A DNA stretch of 32,002 bases from Acidaminococcaceae bacterium (GTDB lineage: Bacteria > Bacillota > Negativicutes > Acidaminococcales > Acidaminococcaceae): NCBI GenBank assembly GCA_029004715.1, contig JAQVYX010000012.1, forward strand, positions 1 through 32,002, given 5' to 3'. Numbering within the stretch: position 1 is the stretch's first letter; every line of letters begins with the position of its first letter. Under the pieces are notes generated by a model, which saw nothing but the letters and a program-made list of their open reading frames with translations, did not search any database and was not told where the DNA came from. Shown here in pieces: positions 25,430 through 27,428 of this stretch. The translations under genes were made by a program, and so were the position numbers.

Positions 25430-26307
25430 TATTTTTTGCCCCCCTTTATAAGCGGATAGCCCAATTTTTCTCTTTGTTCAACATACGCAGCAGCACACAA
25501 CCTTGCCATAGCCCGCACGCGTCCAATAAACGCTGTGCGTTCACTTACACTGATGGCTCCTCTGGAATCTAGTAAATTAAAGGTATGTGAGCACTTTAAT
25601 ACATAATCATAGGCCGGGCGAATATTCCCGGTGGCAATAACTCTTTTAGCTTCCGCTTCATATTTGTTGAATAAATCAAATAAAAGATCAATATCTGCAA
25701 TTTGAAAATTATAAAAAGATTGTTCAACTTCATTTGTATGGAAAACATCCCCATACGTAATGCCATCGACCCATTCGATATCAAATACGTTTTCTACTCC
25801 TTGGATATACATAGCCAAACGTTCCAAACCGTAAGTTATTTCAACGGTAACAGGTTTTACGTCAATACTTCCTACTTGTTGGAAGTAAGTAAATTGAGTA
25901 ATTTCCATACCATCTAGCCAAACTTCCCAACCCAGTCCCCAAGCTCCCAAAGTAGGTGACTCCCAGTTATCTTCTACGAAACGAATATCATGTTCTTCTT
26001 GATGTATGCCCAATTTAGCCAAACTTTCCAGATATAACTCTTGAATGTTATCCGGTGACGGTTTTACAATTACCTGGAATTGATGATGTTGGAACAGTCT
26101 GTTAGGGTTATCTCCATAACGCCCATCAGCAGGGCGACGAGAAGGCTCTACGTAACATACACGCCATGGTTCTGGTCCTAGTACCCTTAAAAAGGTAGCT
26201 GGATTCATCGTTCCTGCGCCCTTTTCAATATCATAGGGTTGTGCCATAATACAATTTTGCCTACCCCAAAAGTCTTGAAGGGTCAAAATAATAGTCTGAA
26301 AATTCAT
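25429..26307 (-). CDS. glyQ: Glycyl-tRNA synthetase alpha subunit
   Basis: The 292-aa catalytic alpha chain charging tRNA-Gly. Class II signatures include [56 protein letters not shown] and [14 protein letters not shown] (each abbreviated from a contiguous conserved N-terminal block), with [18 protein letters not shown] and [13 protein letters not shown] further on. The start has AAGGAGGAG seven bases upstream. A glycine T-box leader precedes it, so expression should rise when tRNA-Gly is uncharged. Confidence 0.97.
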
Positions 26308-26370
26308 AAATACTCCTCCTTAAAATATATCTTACAAGTTTTAAGCATAATTAAGCTCATAAGAAGGCAT

Positions 26371-26519
26371 AAAAAAAGCCCTCGTCCTTGTAATATAGAT
26401 CTAAACTATATTACAGGGACGAAAGCTTTTTAGCTCCGCGGTTCCACCCTGCTTGCCAGTAAACCTAGCCACTCTTATCTTACTAATTGCTCCCGGCTGC
26501 CATTCCGTTCATTGCTTAT
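26371..26519 (-). promoter_or_regulatory. Glycine T-box riboswitch with ultrashort Stem I, controlling glyQS
   Basis: Minus strand: the invariant T-box AGGGTGGAACCGCGG (26436-26450) precedes a strong terminator hairpin (26378-26424, TGTAATATAG/CTATATTACA core) ending in T7 (26371-26377). The specifier GGC (26499-26501) is followed by A and lies in an eight-base loop closed by CGG/CCG, with the kink-turn elements AATGA on its 5' side and GAGCAATT on its 3' side. The promoter at 26526-26554 puts the transcript start near 26519, leaving only about 18 bases before the specifier. The long distal part of Stem I that reads the tRNA elbow in ordinary glyQS T-boxes is therefore absent. Confidence 0.92.
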
Positions 26520-26525
26520 ACAGAA

Positions 26526-26554
26526 AATATAACAAACTAAGCTGTATTTGTCAA
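26526..26554 (-). promoter_or_regulatory. glyQS promoter
   Basis: Minus strand: TTGACA (26549-26554), 17-bp spacer, TATATT (26526-26531). Confidence 0.85.
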
Positions 26555-26593
26555 ATCATTGGTTCACATTCTTTTTGAAATTTAGCCCTTTAT

Positions 26594-26728
26594 TTGTCAT
26601 ATATATGTTCTATACTTTAAACATAGTAAGAACCACCCCTTCTTACTATAATCTTCCCCATCAAATCATCATAAACAACTTCCTTTTAAGAAAAAACCCA
26701 TTTGCTTCCCCAAGCGAATGGTTTTTTT
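26594..26728 (+). ncRNA. Candidate C-rich small RNA, copy 1 (with promoter)
   Basis: Promoter-like TTGTCA (26594-26599), 16-bp spacer, TTTAAA (26616-26621), or TATACT at 26611-26616 as an alternative -10. The RNA would start at about 26623, where a 10-bp hairpin begins (ATAGTAAGAA/TTCTTACTAT, 26623-26649) presenting the loop CCACCCC. A linker with TCTTCCCCATC (26652-26662) and ACTTCCTTTT follows, then a terminator hairpin with loop CCCC (GCTTCCCCAAGC) and T7, ending near 26728. Length is about 106 nt. The plus strand is favoured because one stem position is a U-G wobble here but would be C-A on the other strand. Expression and function are unproven. Confidence 0.55.
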
Positions 26729-26765
26729 CTTGGGTTCACATTCTTTTCAAAATTTTGCCCTTTGT

Positions 26766-26900
26766 TTGTCATATATATGTTCTATACTTTAAACATAGTA
26801 AGAACCACCCCTTCTTACTATAATCTTCCCCATCAAATCATCATAAACAACTTCCTTTTGAGAAAGACCCATTTGCTTCCCCAAGCAAATGGGTTTTCTC
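26766..26900 (+). ncRNA. Candidate C-rich small RNA, copy 2 (with promoter)
   Basis: Same layout as copy 1: TTGTCA (26766-26771), hairpin ATAGTAAGAA/TTCTTACTAT with CCACCCC loop (26795-26821), linker TCTTCCCCATC (26824-26834), and terminator hairpin ACCCATTTGCTT-CCCC-AAGCAAATGGGT followed by TTTCTC. Relative to copy 1, the terminator differs at two stem positions, and both changes turn a wobble or mismatch into a Watson-Crick pair, so the fold is kept or improved. The predicted transcript is about 103 nt. Confidence 0.55.
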
Positions 26901-26903
26901 TTT

Positions 26904-26950
26904 ACAAAAAACCTTCAACAGTTATAATACTACAACTATTGAAGGTTTTT
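26904..26950 (-). terminator. Terminator of the 159-aa hypothetical gene
   Basis: Minus strand: AAAAACCTTCAA, AGTT, a loop, AACT, TTGAAGGTTTTTTG. It overlaps the stop codon of the gene at 26949. The T tracts on both sides suggest it also stops any plus-strand read-through from the small-RNA repeats. Confidence 0.85.
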
Positions 26951-27428
26951 AAATTCCAAAGTAATCATATACCTGCTGCATTATGCTTTGAGCATTTTCC
27001 GAGCTAAGCCCGGTTCTTTGCGCCATTTTTACAATTCCCAGCATTTGTTCTTTAAGATATTTAGCAAAATGCTCTTTATCCATAGATAAGTTTTCGCCAT
27101 TACTTTCACCGGTAGAGCACTCCAAAATAGTCAAAAGTTTCAAAGTACCGGTTTGCTTCTCTGCTAAATAAAACATATAAGGAAACCTGGCATTGAGTTG
27201 TTGGACAAAATTTTTAATTAGTGGATCCTGCCAAATCTCCTGTTCAGTATAGCCATCAAAATAAAATGCGAATTTACCACAAAATTTTTTAGCAAATTCA
27301 ATATTTTCACCTACATACTGTAAAAGATCAAAATAACGCTGAGTTTTCTTAGTGGTTAATTCTTCTTTCGTAATTAAAAATTTTATGTATTCTTCATTTT
27401 CCAGATAACTTATAAATTTTTCATCCAT
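26949..27428 (-). CDS. Hypothetical protein, 159 aa
   Basis: I do not recognise this protein. It is soluble-looking and rich in charged and aromatic residues, with no signal peptide or membrane segment. Two features stand out: a Phe/Tyr-rich central part (FAKKFCGKFAFYFDGYTEQEIW, about 45-66, abbreviated; and LNARFPYMFYLAEK, about 78-91) and a helical C-terminus (KYLKEQMLGIVKMAQ...SIMQQVYDYFG). The likely ribosome site AGAGAGG is 13-14 bases before ATG, which is rather far. It follows the WYL regulator by 60 bases on the same strand and ends in a clear terminator, so it may close the membrane glycosyltransferase-WYL operon. Confidence 0.7.
   Translation of the reverse strand: MDEKFISYLENEEYIKFLITKEELTTKKTQRYFDLLQYVGENIEFAKKFCGKFAFYFDGYTEQEIWQDPLIKNFVQQLNARFPYMFYLAEKQTGTLKLLTILECSTGESNGENLSMDKEHFAKYLKEQMLGIVKMAQRTGLSSENAQSIMQQVYDYFGI

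Follow-up and report, generated by a model that had tools for sequence, protein, structure and literature searches.

The window, by which we mean the whole stretch of 32,002 nucleotides analysed here, is one contig (G000:C12) of an Acidaminococcaceae genome. Between glyQ, which has a T-box leader, and a gene for a 159-aa protein it contains two direct repeats (26556-26725 and 26728-26897), each of which encodes one candidate small RNA (sRNA) on the plus strand. In agreement with the tandem arrangement of the original prediction, the repeat units are 170 nt long, have a spacing of 172 nt and are 87% identical in an ungapped and 94% identical in a gapped comparison. Direct reading of the sequence also bears out the claim of about 95 identical bases, as the segment from TTTGTCA to CTTCCTTTT at 26593-26687 is repeated unchanged at 26765-26859. 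The T-box leader of glyQS (26412-26521, minus strand) scores 45.7 bits and thus falls below the Rfam cut-off of 93. A near-perfect 20-bp hairpin between sRNA copy 2 and the 159-aa gene (26907-26950) is likely a bidirectional terminator. The gene for the 159-aa protein (26949-27428, minus strand), which is without a Pfam or NCBIfam match, adjoins the sRNA in several genera (L100, L101, L105 and L113 too); the two are convergent in the window, in G014 and in G009 but point the same way in Acidaminococcus, which has the look of an in-place inversion of the sRNA segment. The individual features of the two copies are the following:

26563-26616, plus strand: activator-type promoter of copy 1 with a diverged direct repeat (TTCACATTCTTTTTGA), AGCCCTT, TTTGTCA and the -10 element TATACT at 26611-26616 (from the sequence and a grid of 35 promoters)
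26735-26788, plus strand: promoter of copy 2, TTCACATTCTTTTCA...GCCCTTTGTTTGTCA...TATACT, with the box beginning 48 nt upstream of the -10 element (from the same grid of 35 promoters)
26623-26729, plus strand: predicted sRNA of copy 1, about 107 nt (from the fold; model match 26620-26685)
26795-26901, plus strand: predicted sRNA of copy 2, about 107 nt (from the fold; model match 26792-26857)
26623-26649 (copy 1) and 26795-26821 (copy 2), plus strand: 5' hairpin of 10 bp with loop CCACCCC (from the fold and helix covariation)
26653-26686 (copy 1) and 26825-26858 (copy 2), plus strand: conserved single-stranded core CTTCCCCATCAAATCATCATAAACAACTTCCTTT (columns near or at 2 bits in 30 sequences; core-pattern scan)
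26688-26731 (copy 1) and 26860-26903 (copy 2), plus strand: intrinsic terminator with loop CCCC (from the fold, terminator prediction and relatives)

The 5' ends of the predicted RNAs were deduced from the -10 element and the 3' ends from the T-tract. Copies 1 and 2 fold with energies of -28.1 and -32.6 kcal/mol, respectively (z = -9.9 and -8.8), values equalled by none of 200 shuffles, and both show the foretold 5' hairpin with loop CCACCCC and terminator with loop CCCC. The copy 1 terminator was called on the plus strand (0.1 calls expected). The differences between the copies in the terminator stem had been said to favour the plus strand, and they do: U-G becomes U-A and an unpaired C becomes C-G, whereas the first of them yields an A-C mismatch when read on the minus strand, even though the minus strand as a whole folds well too. 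One detail needs correction, in that the three C-rich motifs were all described as UCCCC-type while the one in the 5' loop actually reads ACCCC. On the plus strand the core lacks a start codon, and it is conserved at the level of single bases. With its own promoter, an intrinsic terminator and a conserved unpaired stretch devoid of an ORF, each copy displays the general features of a trans-acting intergenic sRNA.

Relatives of this RNA were found by DNA search in many genera of the Acidaminococcaceae. A covariance model built from the hairpin and the core and run over 381 genomes of the class, the check proposed at the outset, placed homologous copies with hairpin and C-rich sites in 31 of 59 Acidaminococcaceae genomes and in 12 of 18 genera (E<1e-7). 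The refuting condition set at the outset, a lack of homologous copies with conserved hairpins in related genomes, is thus not borne out. Among the 381 genomes there were no matches of this strength outside the Acidaminococcaceae; those weaker outside matches that were inspected lack hairpin, core and terminator and are mostly coding-like, and a wider distribution was therefore rejected. A scan for exact matches to the core pattern in the genomes of 84,980 species returned 28 stretches, every one from this family, namely from Acidaminococcus, Phascolarctobacterium, Candidatus Avacidaminococcus and other Acidaminococcaceae, including two under the submitter label Acholeplasmataceae. Six genera of the Acidaminococcaceae, among them the large genus g13, are without the sRNA. 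In one g13 genome (G013:C12:95667; L243:1168, plus strand) a similar operator and -10 element are followed by a short stretch that contains CAGCCCCTC and ends in a hairpin; it may be a shortened relative.

Copy number ranges from one to four per genome, and many genomes have a single copy. The window's own genome and G047 have four each, those of G047 being in tandem; G052 has three good copies and a weaker one, and G012 has two. Beyond the pair in the window, the copies of the own genome are at G000:C89:107-227 and G000:C67:8664-8788; both have a shorter core and a shifted operator and lie at contig ends, so that the assembly may hide additional copies. Of the tandem copies in G047 (G047:C1:158046-158797; L248) three have rearranged cores. 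All four have ACUUCC as well as a linker with a CCCC run, and the diverged paralogs also retain the 5' hairpin; the ends of the core thus outlast its middle. In G034 (G034:C5:27450; L241:951, plus strand) promoter, 5' hairpin and CCCUUCCCAUC are intact and the remaining core and half of the terminator stem are deleted; this copy is either a decayed gene or an assembly artefact.

Constraint within the family is strong. The 5' helix covaries: in 29 sequences 91% of its cells are paired and 27 cells are changed on both sides, a level reached by 0 of 500 shuffles, and slid versions of the helix attain at most 69% pairing. From genus to genus the terminator stem has a different sequence, but the loop remains rich in C: of 30 aligned copies 27 have CCCC, two paralogs from the own genome have CCC and one A. 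intestini copy has GAAU. Conservation is highest in the linker core CUUCCCCAUCAAAUCAUCAUAAACAACUUCCUUU, whose columns are at or near 2 bits in 30 sequences and which takes the form CCCUUCCCAUCAAAUUCAUCAUAAACAGCUUUCC in Phascolarctobacterium. The ACCCC of the 5' loop is kept in Acidaminococcus and in the clade of the window but is replaced by GAUGA, GAACA or similar in most Phascolarctobacterium copies, and the triple C-rich motif is therefore a feature of a clade and not of the whole family, since Phascolarctobacterium-type copies have only two such sites. The initial reading of the repeats as sRNA genes thus holds for the plus-strand pair, the kept hairpin and the C-rich sites; it did not single out the longer linker core, and its triple layout is not family-wide. 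Gene anatomy, family, covarying hairpin, retained C-rich loops and the rigid operator described next are all direct results of computation.

Aligned on TATACT and counted from the start of the -10 element, 35 distinct promoters of the family fall on one 11-bp grid, with TTCACA at -48, TTCA at -37, GCCCTT at -26 and TTTGTCA at -18. A rigid TTCACA-N5-TTCA repeat is thus located exactly 48 nt upstream of an invariant TATACT. No -35 element is found 16-18 nt from the -10 element, TTGTCA being only 11 nt away, and a promoter scan does not list this promoter; what stands of the promoter-like element proposed earlier is hence the invariant -10 and not a promoter of the ordinary spacing. Direct repeats of 11 bp in phase with the -10 element are typical OmpR/PhoB-family sites, and the layout is typical of an activator-dependent promoter with a putative direct-repeat site of this type. 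The same box in the form TTCAYA-N5-TTCA, again at 48 nt from the -10 element, precedes a two-component operon in several Acidaminococcus genomes and in G014. In Acidaminococcus this operon encodes, besides an OmpR-family response regulator and a sensor kinase, a secreted protein of 94 aa, and relatives of its promoter retain the repeat, with four units in G014. In one such operon (L203:2501-4930; G023:C1) the secreted protein is Gly/Gln-rich and the kinase is Met/Gly-rich between its membrane segments; this system possibly senses metal or the envelope.

But is this operon the switch of the sRNA? At E<=1e-60 the box-linked response regulator is found only in Acidaminococcus and G014 and is absent from the genome of the window and from most sRNA-bearing genomes. 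We therefore rejected it as the universal regulator and regard it as a fellow member of the regulon or as one version of the regulator, not as the proven switch. Matches to the box pattern other than those at the sRNA are about as frequent as control matches, and the only box in 430 kb of the own genome is that of the sRNA promoter itself. In G003 (G003:C5:55104-55157, minus strand) the same operator, AGCCC and a TATCCT at 48 nt occur before a gene for a 79-aa thioredoxin-like protein. Control by the Pho regulon was considered as well; the pst operons of two relatives carry TTTACA/TTAACA repeats and not the sRNA box, and a plain Pho explanation is disfavoured. There is an appreciable though clearly smaller chance that the sRNA is real and pairs with mRNAs but is switched by something other than an OmpR-type two-component regulator, for instance by another activator or an alternative sigma factor. 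The missing -35 element, the confinement of the box-bearing operon to Acidaminococcus and G014 and the pst operons without the box are all in line with this. Phased 11-bp repeats are, however, what OmpR/PhoB-family sites generally look like, and that the two-component operon bears the same repeat at the same distance, in four units in G014, again points to a regulator of the OmpR type.

The complement of the core, AAAGGAAGTTGTTTATG, resembles a ribosome site followed by a start codon. When the linker was set against 20 stretches sampled from the own genome (about 400 kb in all), it paired with translation starts at -13.1 kcal/mol as compared to -9.6 kcal/mol for coding windows, a difference greater than that of 58 of 60 shuffled linkers, the other two being as good. 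The proposed pairing with ribosome sites thereby gains statistical support that is only modest, as a fair affinity for ribosome sites is to be expected of every C-rich RNA. A TonB-dependent receptor (G000:C11:27444-27459) stands out most clearly as a single candidate target: the stretch AAAAGGAGATTGTTTATGA, which holds its ribosome site and start codon, comes close to the complement of the core and would pair with UCAUAAACAACUUCCUUUU. With this discovery case excluded, the TonB receptors of relatives pair at -15.7 kcal/mol versus -13.1 kcal/mol for other genes (p = 0.01 in a post hoc comparison), and we consider TonB-dependent receptors weak candidates for sRNA targets. The OmpM porins were discarded as conserved targets, their mRNAs pairing worse than average. 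Hfq is present in 7 of 7 genomes tested. Together, the pairing statistics, the TonB lead and the presence of Hfq lead us to infer that the sRNA masks the ribosome sites of several mRNAs. In G004 (C160; L104:4067, minus strand) the gene just downstream of an sRNA copy has a ribosome site, AAAGGAAGTTGTCTATG, with 12 nt complementary to the core.

A single target with long complementarity common to the whole family was not found. The pattern AGGAN{2,4}YTGTTTATGA matches mostly the sRNA itself and scattered genes, many of them exported, and one long common target was rejected; the bias towards exported proteins is also seen in genomes without the sRNA. That no family-wide target matches is one of the points in favour of the alternative that the RNA mainly binds a protein, as a sponge or scaffold, with the core as protein site and the C-rich sites secondary. 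The core, moreover, exceeds a typical multi-target seed in length and constancy, and its AUCAUAAACAAC is akin to A-rich chaperone sites. We nevertheless hold this alternative to be unlikely, given that the reverse complement of the core reads as a ribosome site plus start codon, that start regions pair better with the linker than with its shuffled versions, and that the diverged paralogs retain the anti-Shine-Dalgarno-like ends of the core and not the middle.

It is very improbable that the minus strand is the functional one, with the reverse complement of the core serving as a short leader ORF or ribosome site. Although AAAGGAAGTTGTTTATGATGA on that strand resembles a Shine-Dalgarno sequence plus start codon and the terminator hairpins are almost symmetric, the plus side alone bears the conserved operator and -10 element, and the wobbles in the stems favour the plus strand. 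A minus-strand peptide was rejected in addition because the reading frame is not conserved, one clade having MMI-stop and the other MMNLMGRV-stop owing to offsetting 1-nt indels. Least credible of all is that the element has no function, be it an ordinary repeat or a mobile palindrome; the tandem and multi-copy occurrence and the two copies at contig ends might suggest this, but it is at odds with the low copy number, the retention of the flanking genes in several genera and the strong constraint on promoter, hairpin and core.

We therefore favour, with fair confidence, a trans-acting sRNA that is switched on by a response regulator and masks ribosome sites. Each repeat would be a complete sRNA gene comprising activator site, -10 element, 5' hairpin, single-stranded linker and intrinsic terminator. 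A response regulator of the OmpR type, which most likely senses envelope or metal stress, would activate a promoter that has no -35 element of its own by binding the 11-bp TTCACA-N5-TTCA repeat, located some 60 to 46 nt ahead of the start, and one to four gene copies would raise the RNA dose. The exposed CUUCCCC and ACAACUUCCUUU would then base-pair with several mRNAs at their purine-rich ribosome-binding sites, and the C-rich loops may provide extra grips. Pairing would block translation of the targets, probably with the help of Hfq. In this scheme transcription, regulator, ribosome-site pairing, repression and the list of targets are all inferred. A more far-reaching version, which we put forward only tentatively and think rather doubtful, is that of an envelope-stress sRNA of diderm Firmicutes, in which a regulator of the OmpR type activates a C-rich RNA encoded in several copies and this RNA in turn represses exported proteins, TonB-dependent receptors among them; such a system would have arisen independently of LhrC and of the proteobacterial porin sRNAs.

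Acidaminococcus and Phascolarctobacterium are often found in the human gut and belong to those Firmicutes that possess an outer membrane. In many gut Acidaminococcaceae, this RNA probably switches off other genes via their ribosome-binding sites. The family would offer an entry to post-transcriptional control, possibly control of envelope stress, in diderm Firmicutes, and is compact, well conserved and easily testable in cultured A. fermentans, A. intestini and P. faecium. The original prediction that no such family has been described in Negativicutes agrees with our searches, as neither Rfam nor the open-licence papers searched contain a counterpart in this class, and these papers describe no small regulatory RNA for Acidaminococcaceae.

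The envelope-stress sRNAs of Gram-negative bacteria, of the MicA, RybB and CpxQ type, are driven by a stress regulator and lower outer-membrane proteins. The RNA of the window would follow the same logic if the reading of the operator and the TonB-receptor hint hold, but it shows no homology to them, the main porin OmpM is not target-like here, and its regulator class is a putative one. Among Firmicutes, FsrA, RsaE/RoxS and other UCCC-motif sRNAs are G-poor and mask Shine-Dalgarno sequences with exposed C-rich stretches (PMC4132741). The RNA of the window is likewise G-poor with exposed C-rich stretches, which would act in the same manner. It differs from FsrA and RsaE/RoxS in layout, promoter and host range, and matches neither at the Rfam gathering score or at E values up to 5. 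More similar is LhrC of Listeria, a multicopy sRNA of 111-114 nt with three C-rich sites and a response-regulator promoter element at about -53 to -75 (PMC4132741). Our RNA is also multicopy, is about 107 nt long, is C-rich in 5' loop, linker and terminator loop, and has a putative response-regulator element upstream, here a conserved 11-bp repeat that is shared with the Acidaminococcus two-component operon and sits where an element for induction by an envelope-stress two-component system, as in LhrC, would be expected. The three redundant C-rich sites of LhrC have their equivalent in the window and in Acidaminococcus, whereas Phascolarctobacterium-type copies have two only; the motifs are ACCCC/UUCCCC, conservation peaks in a linker core of 34 nt, and the family was found in Acidaminococcaceae only. 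A cmscan of 26300-27000 against all Rfam models listed no LhrC match up to E = 5, and membership in a known RNA family was rejected. The analogy to LhrC drawn originally is therefore good in anatomy and does not extend to homology with LhrC, FsrA or RsaE. Such an LhrC-like anatomy in an RNA that is not homologous to LhrC would clearly be convergent. The RNA of the window represents a new family within a known kind of sRNA; by analogy it is closest to LhrC in its presumed function and its layout, and it is not a member of the LhrC family.
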